From positions 124,001 to 188,000 of the forward strand of contig CANJLQ010000002.1 in the NCBI GenBank assembly GCA_947475735.1: 64,000 nt of DNA. The letters run 5' to 3'. The position numbers and the translations under genes were made by a program. The notes below the pieces were generated by a model. That model made no database searches. It saw only the letters and a program-made list of their open reading frames with translations, and had not been told where the DNA came from. Positions 18,407 through 28,049 of the stretch are shown here, in pieces (positions within the stretch are counted from its first letter, which is position 1; every line of letters starts with the position of its first letter). This DNA comes from Caulobacteraceae bacterium. Its GTDB lineage: Bacteria > Pseudomonadota > Alphaproteobacteria > Caulobacterales > Caulobacteraceae.

Positions 18407-18478
18407 GTGAAGGCCGTGGGCAAAATGCCCCCGACGGTCAAAACGACGGTCGGACACCTTGAAACAAGGACTTTCGTC

Positions 18479-19309
18479 ATGGCGCTGAACAGCGTGAACA
18501 CGAACACGGGCGCCCTCGTCGCCCTGCAGAACCTCCAAGCCACGAACAAGGAACTGGACACCGTCCAGGGCCGGATCAACACGGGCAAGAAGGTCAACTC
18601 CGCCAAAGACAACGGCGCCATCTGGGCCATCGCCCAGGGCCAGCGCTCGGAAATCTCGGCCCTCAATGCCGTCAAGGACAGCCTGGACCGCGGTGCCTCC
18701 GCCGTGGACGTCAGCCTGGCCGCCGGCGAATCCGTCTCTGACCTGCTGGTTCAGCTGAAGGAAAAGGCCCTGGCCGCGACCGACCGGTCTCTGACGACCG
18801 CTGCCCGCAGCGCTCTGAACGAAGACTTCAAGGCCATCCGCGACCAGATCACCACGGTGGTCACCAACGCCAGCTTCAACGGCGTCAACCTGCTGAACGG
18901 TTCCAACACCCTCGGATATCGCGCCCTGGCCAACACCACGGGCTCGACGATCACCGTCAATGACGAGGATCTGCGTCTGGGCGGAACCATCAACACCGTG
19001 GCCGCCACCACCACCATCGGCACCGCGACCCTGGCCACCACGGCCCTGGGTCTGGTGAACGCTTCGATCGACCGCGTCTCGGCCTCCCTGGCTCGCCTGG
19101 GCACCGGCGCCAAGTCGCTGGAAACGCACCGGACCTTCGTCGGCAAGCTGTCCGACGCCCTGGAGTCGGGCGTGGGCAACCTGGTTGACGCGGATCTGGC
19201 CAAGGAAAGCGCGCGACTGCAGTCGCTGCAAACCAAGCAACAGCTGGGTGTGCAGGCTCTGTCGATCGCCAACTCCTCGACCTCGATCCTGCTCGGCCTG
19301 TTCCGTTAA
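18479..19309 (+). CDS. Flagellin (first copy)
   Basis: 276 residues, starting at ATG 18479 behind AAGGA. N-terminal D0/D1 (MALNSVNTNTGALVALQNLQ ... INTGKKVNSAKDNGAIWAIA) and C-terminal D1/D0 (LVDADLAKESARLQSLQTKQ ... SILLGLFR) are complete, with almost no D2/D3. This short form is typical of Caulobacter-type flagellins, where several paralogues build one filament. The second copy at 19794 has the same length. Expression likely late and sigma54-dependent. Confidence 0.95.
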   Translation: MALNSVNTNTGALVALQNLQATNKELDTVQGRINTGKKVNSAKDNGAIWAIAQGQRSEISALNAVKDSLDRGASAVDVSLAAGESVSDLLVQLKEKALAATDRSLTTAARSALNEDFKAIRDQITTVVTNASFNGVNLLNGSNTLGYRALANTTGSTITVNDEDLRLGGTINTVAATTTIGTATLATTALGLVNASIDRVSASLARLGTGAKSLETHRTFVGKLSDALESGVGNLVDADLAKESARLQSLQTKQQLGVQALSIANSSTSILLGLFR

Positions 19310-19320
19310 TCGAAATGGAA

Positions 19321-19342
19321 GGGCGGGGCTTCGGTCCCGCCC
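19321..19342 (+). promoter_or_regulatory. GC-rich hairpin between flagellin and flaG-like gene
   Basis: GGGCGGGGC-TTCG-GTCCCGCCC: a 9-bp stem with one G-U pair and a UUCG tetraloop, 11 nt after the flagellin stop. No T tract follows, so it is more likely an mRNA-stabilising or attenuating hairpin than a full terminator. Confidence 0.6.
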
Positions 19343-19386
19343 GACCGTTCCCAGGAGCCGCCGGCCTCCCCCCGGCGTGAGGAGCC

Positions 19387-19671
19387 ATGGACCCCAATGC
19401 CAAGATAGCCAGCGTCTCGCCCTTCATCCCCGCCGCATCGCCCGCGACGGCCGGTGGAGACTTCAACCAGGGACGCCCCACCCGCGAGGCCGAACTCGCC
19501 GCCAGGTACCGCCTGATCATCGAGGAAGGCCCGACGATCGGGAGCTATATCTACAAGACCCTGGACAGCGCGACCGGAGAGGTCGTCCGGCAGTTCCCCC
19601 GCGAGGAGGTCCTGCGTCTGTCCGAAGACGGCGGCTATGCCGCCGGAGGCCTGATCGACACCAGCGCCTGA
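19387..19671 (+). CDS. FlaG-like flagellar protein
   Basis: 94 residues. The C-terminal half fits the FlaG domain: YIYKTLDSATGEVVRQFPRE then EVLRLSED. The N-terminal 45 residues are variable and polar. FlaG proteins influence filament length and assembly. Lying between two flagellin genes, it probably acts in the same late-assembly step. No membrane segment. Confidence 0.8.
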   Translation: MDPNAKIASVSPFIPAASPATAGGDFNQGRPTREAELAARYRLIIEEGPTIGSYIYKTLDSATGEVVRQFPREEVLRLSEDGGYAAGGLIDTSA

Positions 19672-19730
19672 TCCGGCCGTCTGGTTCTGAACGACCTTCC
19701 CGCGCGGGCCCGCCCGTCGCGGCAAAACCG

Positions 19731-19756
19731 CGTTAACCATACGCTCATGGTTAACG
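19731..19756 (+). promoter_or_regulatory. Palindromic TTAACCAT pair, candidate CtrA site, upstream of second flagellin
   Basis: CGTTAACCAT and ATGGTTAACG are perfect 10-nt inverted repeats separated by 6 nt. Each contains TTAACCAT, a known form of the CtrA half-site in alphaproteobacteria. The palindrome lies 38 nt upstream of the second flagellin ATG. No sigma54 -24/-12 element is seen here, unlike the first flagellin. Confidence 0.5.
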
Positions 19757-19793
19757 CCTAGCGTCCGAGAGAGAATCCGGGGCTAGAAGACCT

Positions 19794-20624
19794 ATGAGCA
19801 ACAGCGTTCACACCAATGCGTCCGCCGCCGTCGCGCTGCAGAACCTGGCGCGGACCAACGAGAACCTGGCGGGTGTCCAGAACCGGGTCTCGACCGGACT
19901 GAAGGTCCAGGGGGCCAAGGACAACGCCGCGATCTGGGCGATCGCCCAGCAGCAGAGGGCCGACACCAGCGCCCTGTCGGCCGTCCGTCAGAGCCTGGAC
20001 CGCGCCACCTCGATCGCCGACGTGGCCCTGGCCGCGGGCGAGTCGATCTCGGACCTGCTGAACCAGCTCAAGGAAAAGGTCGTCGCGGCCAAGGACACCT
20101 CGCTGAAGACCCAGTCGCGAGAGCTGCTGGACGCCGACTTCAAGGCCTTGCTGCGGGCCATCGGCTCCGCCGTCGAGAACGCCGAGTTCGACGGCGGCAA
20201 CATCCTGAACGGGTCGCTGACCAACGGTCTGCGCTTCCTCGCCAACGCCGACGCCACCAGCTTCATCACCCTGTCGAGCAAGGACCTCAGCCTCAGCGGT
20301 TCCATCATCTCGCTGAGCGCGACGGACAGCCTGCTGACGCCCACGGCGGCCACCCAGGCACTCAACCGTCTGGACGCCTCGATCACCAACCTGAACAAGG
20401 CGCTGGGCGACATCGGTGCCCAGGCCAAGCAGATTTCGGCTCATACGACCTTCGTGTCGAAGCTGACCGACACTCTGGAGAGCGGCATCGGCAATCTGGT
20501 CGACGCCGATCTGGCCAAGGAAAGCGCCCGGCTTCAATCCCTGCAGGTTCAGCAACAGCTGGGCGCTCAGGCTCTGTCGATCGCCAACCAGGCGCCGCAG
20601 ATCATCCTGTCGCTGTTCCAGTAA
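19794..20624 (+). CDS. Flagellin (second copy)
   Basis: 276 residues, same architecture as the first copy: MSNSVHTNASAAVALQNLAR at the start and LVDADLAKESARLQSLQVQQ near the end. The central region (residues about 150-190) differs most. It starts with a weak ribosome binding site. The paralogues may be used at different positions in the filament. The control region differs from that of copy one. Confidence 0.95.
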   Translation: MSNSVHTNASAAVALQNLARTNENLAGVQNRVSTGLKVQGAKDNAAIWAIAQQQRADTSALSAVRQSLDRATSIADVALAAGESISDLLNQLKEKVVAAKDTSLKTQSRELLDADFKALLRAIGSAVENAEFDGGNILNGSLTNGLRFLANADATSFITLSSKDLSLSGSIISLSATDSLLTPTAATQALNRLDASITNLNKALGDIGAQAKQISAHTTFVSKLTDTLESGIGNLVDADLAKESARLQSLQVQQQLGAQALSIANQAPQIILSLFQ

Positions 20625-23621: not shown

Positions 23622-23918
23622 TCAGCGCGGCGTCGCGGCCGCCTGCGCCCTTCGCTCGGCCAGCAAGGTCTCGACCGCCAGGCGTCGCGCGGCGTCGCAG
23701 GCGACGATCTGGGCCCCTCGCGTGACATAGCCGATCTCCAGATCCGCCAGCCTCGGGCTGTCCGGCAGGCGATGCAGATCACAGGGCCGGGACGCCGTCT
23801 CCGGCAGGGTCAGACGCGGCGGCGCAACCGCCGAGGTCGGGCGCGATCCGGCACAGCTCGCGATCATGAGCGCGCAGGCGATCGATGCGATCGGGCGAAA
23901 GGGAATGGTCAGCGTCAT
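23622..23918 (-). CDS. Rz1-like outer-membrane spanin lipoprotein
   Basis: 98 residues from ATG 23918. A short signal ends in CALMIASC, a lipobox, giving a small Pro-containing mature lipoprotein. Its first 140 nt overlap the 3' end of the i-spanin gene in another frame, the nested arrangement characteristic of Rz/Rz1 pairs. The o-spanin joins the i-spanin and fuses inner and outer membranes in the last step of phage lysis. Last gene of the cassette. Family sequence conservation is low, so the call rests on architecture. Confidence 0.65.
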   Translation of the reverse strand: MTLTIPFRPIASIACALMIASCAGSRPTSAVAPPRLTLPETASRPCDLHRLPDSPRLADLEIGYVTRGAQIVACDAARRLAVETLLAERRAQAAATPR

Positions 23919-24225
23919 CGGCGGCTCTCGCTTCAAGGGTGGAACGGGTCGTGACGGCGTCGATCCGTCGGTGGGTCTCCAGGGCGGCGTCGAGGCGCGC
24001 CACCTGACCGGCCTGGCCCCCGGCTTCGGCGGAACGCGCGGCGGCATTGCCCTGGGCGACGACGGCGGCGGCCTCGGCCCGATCGGCGCGGCGTCGGGCG
24101 AGGTCGAACGGGTCCCAGCGAAAGCCGAGACCACCCAGAACCAGAGCGACGACGGCCAACATGGCGACCCCGGTCACAAGCCAGCCCAGCGGCGTCAGGG
24201 CGCGCAGGAAGGCGGCCGGGCTCAT
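23779..24225 (-). CDS. Rz-like inner-membrane spanin
   Basis: 148 residues from ATG 24225. One N-terminal transmembrane helix (about 14-37, PLGWLVTGVAMLAVVALVLG) and a charged, alanine-rich periplasmic coiled coil (RRADRAEAAAVVAQGNAAAR). Start overlaps the endolysin stop as ATGA. Topology, length and the overlapping small lipoprotein fit an i-spanin. A generic coiled-coil membrane protein is the alternative. Confidence 0.7.
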   Translation of the reverse strand: MSPAAFLRALTPLGWLVTGVAMLAVVALVLGGLGFRWDPFDLARRRADRAEAAAVVAQGNAAARSAEAGGQAGQVARLDAALETHRRIDAVTTRSTLEARAADDADHSLSPDRIDRLRAHDRELCRIAPDLGGCAAASDPAGDGVPAL

Positions 24226-24605
24226 GGGAACACCCGCCGGTCCATCTCGAAATGCGGACCGTCGCGCAAGGTCGGCCAGTCGCCGCCCCAAACGATGGCG
24301 GTCCCCTGCTCGGCCGCCGCGGCCTTCACCGCCTCGGCGATGCGAGGGTAGAGCGGCCAGTCCCAGCGGATCTTGCCGTCCACCAGGGCGGCGACATCGA
24401 CGGCGTGGCCGGTCAGGTGCCGGGACTTCAAGGTGCGACTGGCCCCGGCCCGAACCAGGGCGGCCTGGCGCGCGGGGGTGCGCAGGCCCTCGGTGATCAG
24501 GAAGTCGATGGGCGATCGCCCGATCGCGGCCTCCATGACCGCGACCAGGGCCGGATGGACGCCCTTCATCCGCGCGCGGGATCGGGCCGAGAAACGAAAG
24601 CTCAT
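24222..24605 (-). CDS. M15-type endolysin (L-Ala-D-Glu / D-Ala-D-Ala peptidase family)
   Basis: 127 residues from ATG 24605 (MSFRFSARSRARMKGVHPAL). Zinc-peptidase motifs of the M15 family are present: SRHLTGHAVDVAAL (HxxxxxxD) and the C-terminal GDWPTLRDGPHFEM (His ligand). Length and domain match phage T5-type endolysins and the lysis enzyme of gene transfer agents. It has no signal peptide, so it needs the holin to reach the wall. Overlaps holin and spanin genes by 4 nt each. Confidence 0.88.
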   Translation of the reverse strand: MSFRFSARSRARMKGVHPALVAVMEAAIGRSPIDFLITEGLRTPARQAALVRAGASRTLKSRHLTGHAVDVAALVDGKIRWDWPLYPRIAEAVKAAAAEQGTAIVWGGDWPTLRDGPHFEMDRRVFP

Positions 24606-24871
24606 CGCGCCCCTCCCTCGGCCAGGCGCAGGCGCAGATTGGCCAGCAGGGCGACCAGCTGCTGGGCCGTGGGGGCCACGAGGTAGAGAACCAGCGTCAG
24701 GGCCAGAAGACCCATCAAACCGGCGGCGACGCGCGGAAGCTGGGCCGGCTCGGTGCGCTCGACGGCCGAGGCCAGCAGGCACCACAAGGCCAGGCTGACC
24801 AGGAAGACATAGAGGCGGCGCCACAGCCAGCGGGCCTCGGCCAGGGGCGGGATCGGGGTGCGGTCAGTCAT
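24602..24871 (-). CDS. Holin-like small membrane protein
   Basis: 89 residues with two hydrophobic helices (about 21-38, LYVFLVSLALWCLLASAV; and 51-68) and a charged C-terminus (NLRLRLAEGGAR). The place directly before the endolysin, with ATGA overlap, is the standard holin position. Sequence alone would not assign it. It would open the inner membrane for the endolysin. Confidence 0.7.
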   Translation of the reverse strand: MTDRTPIPPLAEARWLWRRLYVFLVSLALWCLLASAVERTEPAQLPRVAAGLMGLLALTLVLYLVAPTAQQLVALLANLRLRLAEGGAR

Positions 24872-25037
24872 GGTCCATCTCCGGAGAAAACACGGGGCGG
24901 GTGGAGCGCCAGTCGGCTCCGGTCAGGTCGAGGCTCTCTCGGGGCGACAAACGACGCGGTGTCTCCCAGACCTCGGGCTCCAGCAGACGATCGTCGGGCG
25001 CGACGACCCGCCTGCGACGACGCAGCGGCGCGCTCAT
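24864..25037 (-). CDS. Small coupled protein, 57 aa, between tail-fibre and holin genes
   Basis: ATG 25037 overlaps the DUF2793 stop (ATGA) and its TGA overlaps the holin start. The translation is MSAPLRRRRRVVAPDDRLLE followed by an acidic, Trp-containing tail (EVWETPRRLSP, then DLTGADWRSTRPVF). Very basic N-terminus, no membrane segment. Its tight coupling on both sides supports that it is real. A chaperone or regulator of the neighbouring proteins is possible, but nothing in the sequence proves it. Confidence 0.65.
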   Translation of the reverse strand: MSAPLRRRRRVVAPDDRLLEPEVWETPRRLSPRESLDLTGADWRSTRPVFSPEMDHD

Positions 25038-26488
25038 CCCTGCACCAGGATCAGGACCGCGCCGGCCGCGCCCGCGCCGCCGGCGCCGCCGGACGCGATC
25101 CCGGCACCGCCGCCACCCCCGCCAGCGCCGCGCGCCCCGCCCGCCCCGCCAGCGAAGCCCGCGCCGGACGAAGCAGCCGATCCGCCGCCACCGCCACCAC
25201 CGCTGATCGAGACCGCGACGGGAGGGGCGGCTCCCGCGCTTCCCGCCGACGCCGACCCGCCCGCGCCGCCGGGGGCCGGACAGGACAACAGCCCGCCCGT
25301 GCCGCCGTCGCCGCCGTTCCTGGCCGTGCCGCCCGCCTCCAGCGACCCGCCCGCGCCGCCTCCGCCTGGCGCGCCGGGGGCCGCGCTCGCCTGGCCTGCG
25401 CCGCCGGTGGCCGAAGGGGCGGTGGCCCCGCCGTCATTGCCGCCCAGAAGGCCGGGACCGCCGGAGCCGCCCGCGCCACCGGACGCGCCCGATTGACCGG
25501 CCAAGCCGCCTCGCGCGGTCAGCAGGGTCACGCCGCCGCTCGTGATCGTGGTGTCGCCCCCGGCCGCGCCACCAGCGCCGCCCGCGCCGACCGTCAGCGT
25601 CAGCCCCGCCGGCAGATCGGCCGTCCGCCACAGCGCGGTCGACAGGCCCCCGCCGCCCCCGCCTCCGCCGCCGGACCTCAGCCCGCTGGCCCCGAAGGCG
25701 CCCGCCCCGCCCCCACCGCCGCCCCCGACGGCCATGACCGACAGCGTCCGCGCCCAGTCCGGCGGGCTCCAGGCCCCGCCCGCCGTCAGCAGGACCGCCT
25801 CGACCCGCCCGGCCCCGCGCGGGAAGGTCACGCGACCGTCGTCGCCGTCGATGCGGAAGGCCTCGCGCCAGGTCGCGCCGTCGCTGGAAACCCTCAGCGT
25901 CAGGTCGTCGTCGCCGACGAGGCCGAACTCGGCGCGGCCGCCGTATCCGCTCTGGAACAGCAGCGACAGGACGTCGGTCGGGGTGTCCTTGTTCAGGGTG
26001 ATGCGCAGGTCGCCGTCGCCGCCGTCGGCCTCGGGCCGGGCGGTCCACAGGGCCTTGTTGACCTTGGCGGCGAAGGGGTTGGTGGCGTCGGCCTCAGTGT
26101 TCAGGCCCAGCCGGGTCAGGTTCTGGTGCTCGGCCCTGCGGATCAGGGGCGTCCAGCCGCCCGCATCGCGCGCGATGAGCTCATCGCGATCCCGCACCAG
26201 GACCAGCATGCCAAGCGGCACCGGCACCCGGACCCACCCGCCGGCCTCGGCGCGGACCAGGTCTCCCGCGCTCCAGCTGGCCCAGGTCGCGCCGGTCGCG
26301 CCGGGCGGGAGGATGTAGAGGTCGCCCTCGGTCGGGCTGGCCGGCTCGGCCGCGACGGTGCGGCTGATCACCGCCGTCTGGGTCAGGGCGTCGAGGCGGG
26401 CCAGGGCCTCGTTGACGGTGACGTGTTTCTGCAGCTGACCCGCCGCGACATAGGGCAGGGTCAGGCGCGCGCTGTGGCTGGATGGCAT
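25034..26488 (-). CDS. DUF2793 tail-fibre-like protein with polyglycine C-terminal domain
   Basis: 484 residues. The N-terminal 90 residues fit DUF2793 (RLTLPYVAAGQLQKHVTVNE, then EGDLYILPPGATG), a domain found in phage tails and in the host-attachment fibre of alphaproteobacterial gene transfer agents. A central beta-rich segment (about 110-240) follows. The last 230 residues are extremely glycine-rich (GGGGGGGAGAFG, SGGGGGGGG, AGGAGGAA), resembling polyglycine-sandwich adhesin tips. First gene of the lysis operon; GGAG lies 9 nt before ATG. Confidence 0.8.
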   Translation of the reverse strand: MPSSHSARLTLPYVAAGQLQKHVTVNEALARLDALTQTAVISRTVAAEPASPTEGDLYILPPGATGATWASWSAGDLVRAEAGGWVRVPVPLGMLVLVRDRDELIARDAGGWTPLIRRAEHQNLTRLGLNTEADATNPFAAKVNKALWTARPEADGGDGDLRITLNKDTPTDVLSLLFQSGYGGRAEFGLVGDDDLTLRVSSDGATWREAFRIDGDDGRVTFPRGAGRVEAVLLTAGGAWSPPDWARTLSVMAVGGGGGGGAGAFGASGLRSGGGGGGGGGLSTALWRTADLPAGLTLTVGAGGAGGAAGGDTTITSGGVTLLTARGGLAGQSGASGGAGGSGGPGLLGGNDGGATAPSATGGAGQASAAPGAPGGGGAGGSLEAGGTARNGGDGGTGGLLSCPAPGGAGGSASAGSAGAAPPVAVSISGGGGGGGSAASSGAGFAGGAGGARGAGGGGGGAGIASGGAGGAGAAGAVLILVQG

Positions 26489-26763
26489 GATCGATCTCCG
26501 CGTTGAGGCTGGAGATCAGTCTGTGGGAGCCGCCAATGCGGGCGCGCTCAGCCGACGTCGATCGACGTGGCCTTTGAATCAAGGGGCGAATTCAGCCTGT
26601 CTTCGGATGAAAGGGCGCTTGAAGGCGGATGCGGGGAGGCCGTTGGAAGGGCTGGGAGGCCTCCCCGCGGACCGATGCGCGGCTGTCAGGACCCCGACGC
26701 CGCGAAGCGACGTCGAACGCACCGGTCAAGGCAGCTACGGACGCGTCGGCGCGCCGGATGCGG
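26489..26763. other. 275-bp intergenic region upstream of the tail-fibre/lysis operon
   Basis: No gene seen. It separates the DUF2793 start from the anti-sigma factor stop, both on the minus strand, so it should carry the operon promoter. It contains a 14-bp perfect palindrome (26555-26568) and TTGAATCAA (26574-26582), which includes a GANTC methylation site. Confidence 0.6.
26555..26568 (-). promoter_or_regulatory. Candidate operator: 14-bp perfect palindrome
   Basis: ACGTCGATCGACGT, self-complementary, centred about 73 nt upstream of the DUF2793 start. Position and symmetry fit a dimeric regulator binding at the promoter of the lysis operon. The regulator is unknown. Confidence 0.4.
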
Positions 26764-27495
26764 TCAGAGTTGCTGAAGTTCGCCGGAGGCGACGACCGGG
26801 CCCTGGGGCTCCGTCGGCGGCGGTGTGGTGCCCGGGGCCTCGATCGAGATGGCGACCGCCGTGGCCGTGCCCGCCTGGCCGCTGAGGGCCTGTGACAGGG
26901 TCCGACGCGAGGCCTCCGCGCCGTCGATCGCACCGATCAGCTGGACCCCGCCCTCGGGCCGCACCAGCCAAAGGTGCGGCACGCCGTCGGAGGCGGCGAT
27001 GGCCGTCGTGGGGGCGATGAACAGATTTCCGGTCACGGTGTCATAGGCGATGGTCACCGCCGGGGCCCCGCCCTCGGACAGGGTCAGGGTGGCGACGCGT
27101 GTCACGCCACCGGCAGGCGCGGGGGCGGGTTCGGGCACCGGGGCGGGGCGCGCGATCAGGACGGCGACGGCGACGAGGCTGGCGGCCAGCAAGCCGGTCG
27201 ATCCGATGGCCCAACCGCGCCAGAAGCCCAGGCGACCGTTGTCATTGGCGGCCGGATCGATCCCGGCGAGGATGCGGGGCCAGACGCCTGGCGACGGCTC
27301 GACACCGCGGATTTCGGCGGCGAAGGCGGCCAGATGCGCGTTCCAGGCCTCGACCTCGGCGGCGAAGGCCGGGTCGGCCTGCGCGCGGGCGCGGGCGGCC
27401 CGCTCCTCGTCCGGCGACAGGACACGCAGGGCCAACTCTCCGGCCAGGGCGCGGGCGTCGTCGGGTCCGGGCTCGTGTGTGGTGGTGTCGCTCAT
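26764..27495 (-). CDS. Anti-sigma factor, RskA-like
   Basis: 243 residues. N-terminal cytoplasmic anti-sigma region (DARALAGELALRVLSPDEER, then WNAHLAAFAAEI), one transmembrane helix (about 92-113, GSTGLLAASLVAVAVLIARP) and a periplasmic RskA C-terminal domain (VPHLWLVRPEGGVQLIGAID). It would hold the ECF sigma factor until an envelope signal triggers release. Overlaps the sigma gene by 4 nt. Confidence 0.88.
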   Translation of the reverse strand: MSDTTTHEPGPDDARALAGELALRVLSPDEERAARARAQADPAFAAEVEAWNAHLAAFAAEIRGVEPSPGVWPRILAGIDPAANDNGRLGFWRGWAIGSTGLLAASLVAVAVLIARPAPVPEPAPAPAGGVTRVATLTLSEGGAPAVTIAYDTVTGNLFIAPTTAIAASDGVPHLWLVRPEGGVQLIGAIDGAEASRRTLSQALSGQAGTATAVAISIEAPGTTPPPTEPQGPVVASGELQQL

Positions 27496-28049
27496 GATTC
27501 GAGGCAGCTCCTCAGCCTCATCAGCCCCCGTCGGATCCAGCTTTTCATCGTTCCCAGCGGCACGTTCTCGCGCTGGGCCAGGGCGTCGTAGGTGACCCCT
27601 TCGATGAAGGCTGTGCGGATCACGCCACGGGCCTTTTCCTCGAGTTGGTCCAGGCAGACGTTCAGCCGACCGACCTCGTCGGCCTGCTCGATCGTCTCGG
27701 ACGCCAGAGCCGCGCCGTCGGCAAGATCATGGGCGTCCTCGACCGGGACGGCGCGCCGCATGGGGGAGGCCGAGCGCAGCCGGTCGATCGAGCGATTGCG
27801 CGCGATCGTCACCAGCCAGGTGATGGGGCTGGCGCGCGCCGGATCGAAGCCGTCGGCTTTTCTCCACACTGTCAGATAGGTGTCCTGCAAGACGTCCTCG
27901 GCCGTTTGGCGGTCAGGCAAGATACGCAGGCACACGCCCAATAGCTTCGCCGAGGTCGCTTCATAGACCACGCGGAACGCGGATCGGTCGCCCTGTCCGG
28001 CCTGAACCAGGGCCGCAGCCAGTTCGTCTCGCGTCAGCATGGCGGCCAT
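27492..28049 (-). CDS. ECF-family RNA polymerase sigma factor
   Basis: 185 residues; the start could be 28049 or the ATG at 28040. Region 2 (LLGVCLRILPDRQTAEDVLQ, DTYLTVWRKA, ITWLVTIARNRSIDRLR) and region 4 (GVTYDALAQRENVPLGTMKS, WIRRGLMRLR) are both intact. It belongs with the SigK-type group that pairs with RskA-like anti-sigmas. Targets are unknown; autoregulation is likely. Confidence 0.92.
   Translation of the reverse strand: MAAMLTRDELAAALVQAGQGDRSAFRVVYEATSAKLLGVCLRILPDRQTAEDVLQDTYLTVWRKADGFDPARASPITWLVTIARNRSIDRLRSASPMRRAVPVEDAHDLADGAALASETIEQADEVGRLNVCLDQLEEKARGVIRTAFIEGVTYDALAQRENVPLGTMKSWIRRGLMRLRSCLES

Follow-up and report, generated by a model that had tools for sequence, protein, structure and literature searches.

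The window analyzed here is a 64-kb stretch of a Caulobacteraceae genome (positions 124001-188000 of contig C2; the genome, which we call G000, is 3.47 Mb in 26 contigs). We focus on a block of six overlapping genes on the minus strand, at positions 23622-26488 of the window, that encode a tail-fiber protein, a 57-amino-acid protein, a holin candidate, an endolysin (lysin), and a nested pair of spanin candidates. Their open reading frames (ORFs) were read in the window, and the junctions between the genes are overlaps of 4-8 bases. A first-pass annotation, made from the sequence alone, had described six coupled ORFs on one strand and suggested that they form a detached fiber and lysis module of a gene transfer agent (GTA). 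All six ORFs hold up (Table 1), with one small correction to the lysin gene. Its start is probably at 24605 rather than 24614, which gives a protein of 127 amino acids and an ATG that overlaps the stop codon of the holin gene, as in relatives.

The fiber protein contains DUF2793 at residues 25-112 and Gly_rich_2 at residues 239-480 (7e-23 and 6e-7 in Pfam). It is the only DUF2793 protein in the genome. The tail fiber of RcGTA, the gene transfer agent of Rhodobacter capsulatus, is also a DUF2793 protein (PMC10883770), and ccna_02456, which is the Caulobacter crescentus homolog of the RcGTA fiber gene, is induced by GafYZ (PMC9632790).

The lysin is a member of Peptidase_M15_4 (4.6e-12 in Pfam), and its best match among the PHROGs is to endolysins. 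The solved structures nearest to it are ChiX and an M15C-domain protein (8e-32). We compared the operon to 20 other loci that were chosen for having the fiber gene next to the lysin gene. The holin candidate was found in all 20 and the spanins in 19, and the motifs SxHxxGxAxD and PHFE are intact in 20/20 lysins. The 57-amino-acid protein has matches in 19 of the 20 loci, but many of these matches cover little sequence and have poor E-values (up to 0.6). The lysin is under purifying selection: the ratio of nonsynonymous to synonymous differences (pN/pS), computed between G000 and each of the 20, is 0.19-0.37, as compared to 0.13-0.72 for the holin candidate and 0.31-0.72 for the N-terminus of the fiber.

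The holin candidate, the spanins, and the 57-amino-acid protein had no hits above the curated cut-offs in Pfam, PHROGs, or NCBIfam. By eye, the N-terminus of the i-spanin candidate contains a single hydrophobic stretch. The gene for the o-spanin candidate is in another frame and lies partly inside the i-spanin gene. The system to compare such nested arrangements with is Rz/Rz1. A lipobox was found by pattern in 17 of 19 o-spanin candidates and by eye in the remaining two (MTASCV and SIASCA). Given the arrangement and the lipobox, we consider these proteins to be candidates for Rz/Rz1-like spanins, although they do not match a known family.

One way to check the first-pass suggestion is to search the genome for a structural cluster like that of RcGTA or of CcGTA, the gene transfer agent of C. 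crescentus. Such a cluster is present on contig C3, and thus on another contig than the operon. GTA_TIM (PF13547) has a single match in the genome (E = 1e-138), in a 1244-amino-acid protein that also contains Phage-tail_3 and Rcc01698_C. The ten proteins that we scanned around GTA_TIM include TerL, the portal, an HK97-type capsid, the tail tube, and a DUF2460 protein. The cluster also encodes a hub of the phiJL001-Gp84 type, an NlpC/P60 protein, and a short protein that resembles a tape measure (below the cut-off). The gene for the DUF2793 fiber is not in this core cluster. Between terL and the portal gene, the cluster has a gene with a GDSL-lipase domain (C3:219513-220916).

The fiber operon and the core cluster share a promoter architecture of ~100 bp at fixed spacing. 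The sequence upstream of the fiber gene is TCATCC-N59-GCGCCCGCAT-N12-CAGACTG, and the first core gene is preceded by TCATCC-N59-GCGCCCGCAT-N12-TATAGTT, with the same block and the same 59-bp spacing at C3:222772-222846. In G000, there are five exact matches to the spaced pattern: the fiber promoter, the core promoter, two that precede genes of the helix-turn-helix (HTH) type, and one on contig C8 that appears to be a chance match. If up to two mismatches are allowed, there are 17 matches, versus 1 for a control pattern that was read backward. The pattern was defined on G000 and G053, and it has exact matches in G051 too, at both the core and the fiber places.

To compare promoters across relatives, we used 20 other genomes that were chosen because they have adjacent fiber and lysin genes and a listed place for GTA_TIM. 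TerL was found in 16/20 of the core loci (there was none in L085, L095, L096, or L098), so with G000 included, we used 17 core promoters. The core and fiber promoters are at different loci in every genome; within the same genome, the best ungapped offset between them was identical in 13/17 genomes. In G053, the core and fiber promoters share an identical block of at least 25 bp. By eye, this block varies between species but tends to match within a genome. Also, CAGACTG or CACACTG is present in 15/21 of the fiber promoters. Finally, we built a 102-bp profile from core promoters only, with the tested species left out, and applied it to ~10,400 windows per genome: in this test, which like the others is not independent across related species, the fiber promoter ranked first in 12/20 genomes, among the top 3 in 16, and among the top 11 in 19.

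The GTA promoter of C. crescentus needs a far-upstream GafY site, a site for integration host factor (IHF), and a weak -35/-10; a GafZ palindrome separates these last two elements (PMC11150451). The promoters described here seem to follow the same plan of activator site, IHF site, and -10. We consider the shared promoter architecture, as read from the sequences, to be decisive for the link to the GTA.

Two other candidates for regulatory links did not help. DUF6456 (PF20057) was considered as a putative marker of a GTA activator; because it is present in 125/131 genomes of the genus, it is uninformative. And a motif in the leader of the fiber gene was considered as an element shared with the core, but it is only partly present in 1/17 of the core upstream regions (L099), and the shared part lies further upstream. 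The leader has a predicted hairpin between the -10 and the ATG that pairs the Shine-Dalgarno sequence in 20/21 genomes, and in G079 and G082 the letters have changed on both sides of the stem. The mean z-score of the folding energies against mononucleotide shuffles was -2.0, with 14/21 below -1.5. This hairpin suggests that translation of the fiber gene might be delayed or conditional.

To examine the distribution of the operon, we surveyed 131 genomes of Brevundimonas, including G000. We found an ortholog of the lysin in 110/131 (the best matches are 68-87% identical), plus a fragment at a contig edge in G127. The holin candidate is present in 116/131 genomes, and DUF2793, with one copy per genome, in 122/131. 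Among the 105 genomes with both the lysin and DUF2793, the two genes are within 3 kb of each other in 78, are 84 kb apart in one (G159), and are on different contigs in 26, many of which have one of the genes near the start of a contig. The operon recurs across the genus. Because orthologs of the lysin are in 110/131 genomes and the holin and spanins are kept in the chosen loci, the six-gene block is more than a chance arrangement. Also, the distances of the five proteins that we tested follow those of TerL across 17 genomes (Mantel r of 0.50-0.73, reached in 0/2000 permutations).

Close homologs of the lysin are mostly from this genus. Among the 25 lysin records that carry names, Brevundimonas accounts for 17 (B. 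subvibrioides, B. lutea, B. halotolerans, B. diminuta, and others), six have broader alphaproteobacterial or Caulobacterales names, one is labelled as a metagenome-assembled genome of Bordetella, and one is from Marichromatium. Outside the genus, a close lysin was found in just 1/259 genomes of the family (G274, 59% identity). There, the lysin gene is followed by spanin-like genes (by eye; contig C53, locus L059), with no fiber gene in the 10 kb that were read. In a second genus of the family (g13), DUF2793 was found in 60/75 genomes, mostly in frames of 250-300 amino acids, which are shorter than the ~480-residue glycine-rich form of this operon; the lysin matches listed for that genus are only weak.

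Twenty-one Brevundimonas genomes lack a full ortholog of the lysin (G127 is among them), and we read the loci in 14 of these. Three have another lysin in its place. The lysin that comes after the holin in G096 is of the GH19 type (PF00182, 1.3e-8); G047 has a protein with a Tlde1 domain (9e-12), flanked by a diverged holin and by the spanins; and in G141, a CHAP-like protein (by eye, with no match in Pfam) lies ahead of the spanins. The endolysin has therefore been replaced by an unrelated one in two species, and perhaps in a third (G141). Five loci are partial operons: those of G065, G092, and G158 end after the holin, G109 has the holin and spanins, and G077 has the fiber and spanins. DUF2793 is in another context in four genomes, which are 2.5-2.6 Mb in size (G052, G084, G121, and G164); in three of them, it is beside genes for a sugar epimerase or a nucleotidyltransferase (by eye). 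The last two loci (G130 and G102) are cut by contig ends. Because the neighbors are kept while the wall hydrolase is replaced by unrelated ones, the site behaves as a working lysis cassette.

Given the core cluster on C3, the shared promoter, and the recurrence across the genus, the suggestion of a detached fiber and lysis module is well supported, and we think it likely that the operon serves adhesion and release for the RcGTA-like gene transfer agent of this genome. Because its promoter design is shared with the distant GTA cluster, the operon probably lets the particles adhere and lyses the cell to release them. Specifically, when the GTA program is on, the fiber and lysis genes would be turned on together, from a promoter that has the same build as that of the structural cluster (an activator site far upstream, a probable IHF bend, and a weak -35/-10). 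We infer that GafY and IHF bind this promoter and that it is active at the same time as the core. The fiber would join the tail of the particle and bind recipient cells. The holin candidate would open the inner membrane, the M15 peptidase would cut the wall, and the nested spanin pair would break the outer membrane, so that the producer bursts and the particles are released.

Several observations weigh against this interpretation. The best offset between the core and fiber promoters differs in 4/17 genomes (G073, G087, G106, and G176), and the fiber promoter of G072 has a profile rank of just 97. In our own window, the fiber promoter was 6th of ~128,000 windows if the genome's own core promoter was included in the profile and was not among the best five if it was left out. 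The regulator genes were not identified (no search with the gafYZ sequences of C. crescentus was made). The holin candidate does not match any family, and the case for it is two hydrophobic stretches (by eye) and a position that fits a holin. In G159, a rearrangement (L234, L235) has split the fiber gene, which has a GTA-type promoter and a frame of 432 amino acids, from the genes for the holin, lysin, and spanins, and there is no GTA-type promoter for these lysis genes among the best matches to the profile. Also, a second lysin with 63-71% identity is found elsewhere in six genomes, and the relative in Marichromatium, which is outside the class, is 65% identical, so lysins of this kind do move.

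We also tried to use the co-occurrence of the lysin and the GTA core as the main proof, but within the genus it turned out to be only weak. As core markers, we used GTA_TIM and the GTA capsid at E ≤ 1e-40; G082 and G176, whose capsids are only 45-48% identical, were counted as lacking the capsid. We had predicted that the lysis operon would be confined to genomes with the core. Instead, the lysin is present in 103/120 genomes with at least one marker and in 7/11 with neither (p = 0.076), and 15/102 genomes with both markers have no ortholog of the lysin. For instance, G147, G173, and G174 are each a single contig, and they keep the operon and have neither marker. Since there are species that keep the operon without the core, either the loss of the core comes before that of the operon, or the operon does something in addition to GTA release.

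This leads to the idea of a stationary-phase lysis and adhesion operon that is in the GTA regulon, has another purpose as well (lysis as a public good, extracellular DNA, or a second particle), and survives the loss of the core. Besides the seven genomes that keep the lysin without the markers, G147 fits this idea, as its fiber promoter and six promoters of noncoding repeats still share one promoter (by eye). On the other hand, one loss of the core looks recent because G062 retains a remnant of the capsid (residues 1-209); the sequence upstream of its fiber gene is very like those of G173 and G174, and in G173 the fiber frame has been shortened to 331 amino acids. Overall, we consider a broader role of this kind to be unlikely. 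We have even less belief in a cassette in which the holin, peptidase, and spanins export the glycine-rich fiber without bursting the cell. ChiWXYZ of Serratia is a type 10 secretion cassette, and in the type 10 secretion system the secreted enzyme is encoded in the same operon. Although the solved structure that is nearest to our lysin is ChiX (5opz, 2e-41), and the peptidases are of the same kind, the Brevundimonas operon has a GTA-type promoter and encodes no enzyme besides the lysin: only the genes for the fiber and the 57-amino-acid protein are beside the lysis set. Also, its promoter is shared with the GTA core, and DUF2793 is the tail fiber of RcGTA (PMC10883770).

The first-pass annotation had offered two alternatives to a GTA, a prophage remnant and a tailocin release unit. 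The fiber and the lysin do match phage families, so the operon might be what is left of a prophage that kept its tail-fiber and lysis end. However, it is near-universal in the genus, with a single DUF2793 per genome, it follows the lineages, and it is next to flagellins in 9/10 loci, so this distribution largely refutes a prophage origin. Furthermore, the lysin is under purifying selection, no phage lysin shares more than 66% identity with it, and the holin candidate had 0 matches in phages at E ≤ 0.01. We regard the prophage remnant as very improbable. A tailocin would also be suited by fiber and lysis genes, but the promoter is shared with the GTA core, which makes this the least credible of the explanations (no genome-wide search for tailocin genes was made).

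In R. capsulatus, the fiber and lysis genes are at separate loci, whereas in Brevundimonas they are in one operon with a nested spanin pair. The two systems are alike in the type of structural cluster (GTA_TIM and Rcc01698_C), in the DUF2793 fiber, and in the classical holin-endolysin lysis of RcGTA (PMC13236601), for which Brevundimonas has candidate genes. The lambda-type cassettes of holin, endolysin, and Rz/Rz1 have a similar gene order and a nested o-spanin, but the Brevundimonas set is not in a phage, is preceded by a fiber gene, and has a GTA-type promoter. CcGTA, which packages DNA of 8-10 kb (PMC9632790), is from the same bacterial family and has the GafYZ-induced fiber homolog and the promoter plan described above, but lysis seems to be quite different: C. 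crescentus uses the CARD-NLR-like LypABC, and two papers report that no holin-endolysin homologs were found in it (PMC13236601, PMC9632790), while Brevundimonas has a candidate holin-endolysin-spanin set. Because lypABC is complete in only 4/11 of the Caulobacter species with GTAs (PMC13236601), other routes of GTA lysis probably exist, and the Brevundimonas operon is a candidate for one of these.

In the literature that we examined, the lysis route is described for two GTA producers, and their machines are quite different (PMC13236601). By title or the start of the abstract, none of the matches listed in our literature search were about the lysis of Brevundimonas GTAs or about GTA spanins. 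In our reading, GTA accessory genes have here been rearranged into one adhesion-lysis operon with spanins. The operon provides a concrete holin-endolysin-spanin candidate for a whole neighboring genus, and its promoter links it to the GTA core. Together with the contrast between LypABC and classical lysis, the unrelated endolysins at one site suggest that the lysis modules of GTAs have been swapped in evolution while the particle stays.

Table 1. Features of the fiber and lysis operon and of the region upstream of it, in window coordinates.
Feature	Position	Strand	Basis
DUF2793 tail-fiber protein, glycine-rich C-terminal half, 484 amino acids	25034..26488	-	Pfam PF10983 (7e-23) and PF21722 (6e-7)
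57-amino-acid protein, no assigned role	24864..25037	-	ORF; match at the same place in 19/20 chosen loci
Holin candidate, 89 amino acids	24602..24871	-	Two hydrophobic segments (by eye)
M15 endolysin, L-Ala-D-Glu peptidase type	24222..24605	-	PHROG endolysin (6.6e-58); PDB ChiX 5opz (2e-41)
i-spanin candidate	23779..24225	-	N-terminal hydrophobic stretch and long periplasmic part; in 19/20 chosen loci
o-spanin candidate	23622..23915	-	Out-of-frame overlap with the i-spanin gene; lipobox MIASC; in 19/20 chosen loci
Putative GTA-type upstream promoter block, TCATCC - 59 bp - GCGCCCGCAT	26536..26610	-	Exact match at G000:C2:150536-150610
-10-like element CAGACTG, 12 bp after GCGCCCGCAT	26517..26523	-	Register equals that of TATAGTT in the core promoter
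Predicted leader hairpin that pairs the Shine-Dalgarno GGAG of the fiber gene	26493..26517	-	Shine-Dalgarno paired in 20/21 predicted leaders
Inverted repeat, terminator-like (by eye)	26631..26668	-	Between the anti-sigma gene and the operon promoter; also in several of 20 relatives

As the first-pass annotation had noted, genes related to flagella and to sigma factors flank the operon. On one side are flagellin-like ORFs (18407-20624, by eye), and a 924-amino-acid ORF without a match in Pfam also lies in the flanks. Directly upstream, and on the same strand as the operon, are genes for a sigma-70-family factor and an RskA-type anti-sigma factor (26764-28049), which the terminator-like repeat separates from the operon. 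That annotation had also seen no capsid, portal, terminase, or integrase genes next to the operon, and we found no phage genes among the four neighbors, the only other genes of the window that were scanned with Pfam. In 9 of the 10 operon-type loci that we examined by eye, the next genes after the operon are flagellin-like; the exception is G141. Arrays of one to three such genes were seen beside the operon in most of the relatives that were read, in the stretches covered for L041-L045, L051, L054, L055, L058, and L234 (by eye).

GTA-type promoters also occur at other loci. In G000, the exact pattern is found before genes for proteins of 272 and 171 amino acids (L121:2080-2898 on C11 and L123:2462-2977 on C9). 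The 171-residue product has weak matches, below the cut-off, to resolvase-HTH and homeodomain-like families, and the 272-residue product has none. By eye, both resemble small DNA-binding proteins of the terminase-small-subunit kind. They recall the homeodomain-related gene of C. crescentus that is induced by GafYZ (PMC9632790). In G053, GTA-type promoters lie ahead of multi-copy noncoding repeats of two families (L125-L134 and L136-L140). These repeats are ~350-450 nucleotides long, with a conserved 5' part and variable inserts. A search of seven of these loci against Rfam at the gathering threshold gave only an unrelated tRNA. With a probe from family A, we found matches (E ≤ 0.001, some of them short) in 26/131 genomes, not including G000, and nine genomes have at least six matches. 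G000 has a further GTA-type promoter of this group, with one mismatch to the pattern, at L122 (C24:10597-10671). The repeats could possibly be GTA-induced noncoding RNAs.

In G147, which lacks the core markers, the palindrome CCAATCCCTTGNNNNGCAANGGATTG has 61 strand-wise matches at 31 places (L200-L229), as compared to 0 for the reversed control. Sites of this kind precede the fiber gene and an HTH-like gene, as well as the noncoding repeats and a second class of repeats that is rich in GGACTC, and by eye the fiber and six of the noncoding repeats have one genome-specific promoter in common. We tentatively speculate that in Brevundimonas, one promoter design controls a genome-wide GTA regulon of the structural cluster, the fiber-lysis operon, HTH genes that resemble terminase small subunits, and two families of multi-copy noncoding RNAs, and that the fiber-lysis and RNA part can persist after the cluster is lost. 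If so, the release and lysis program would have a life of its own.

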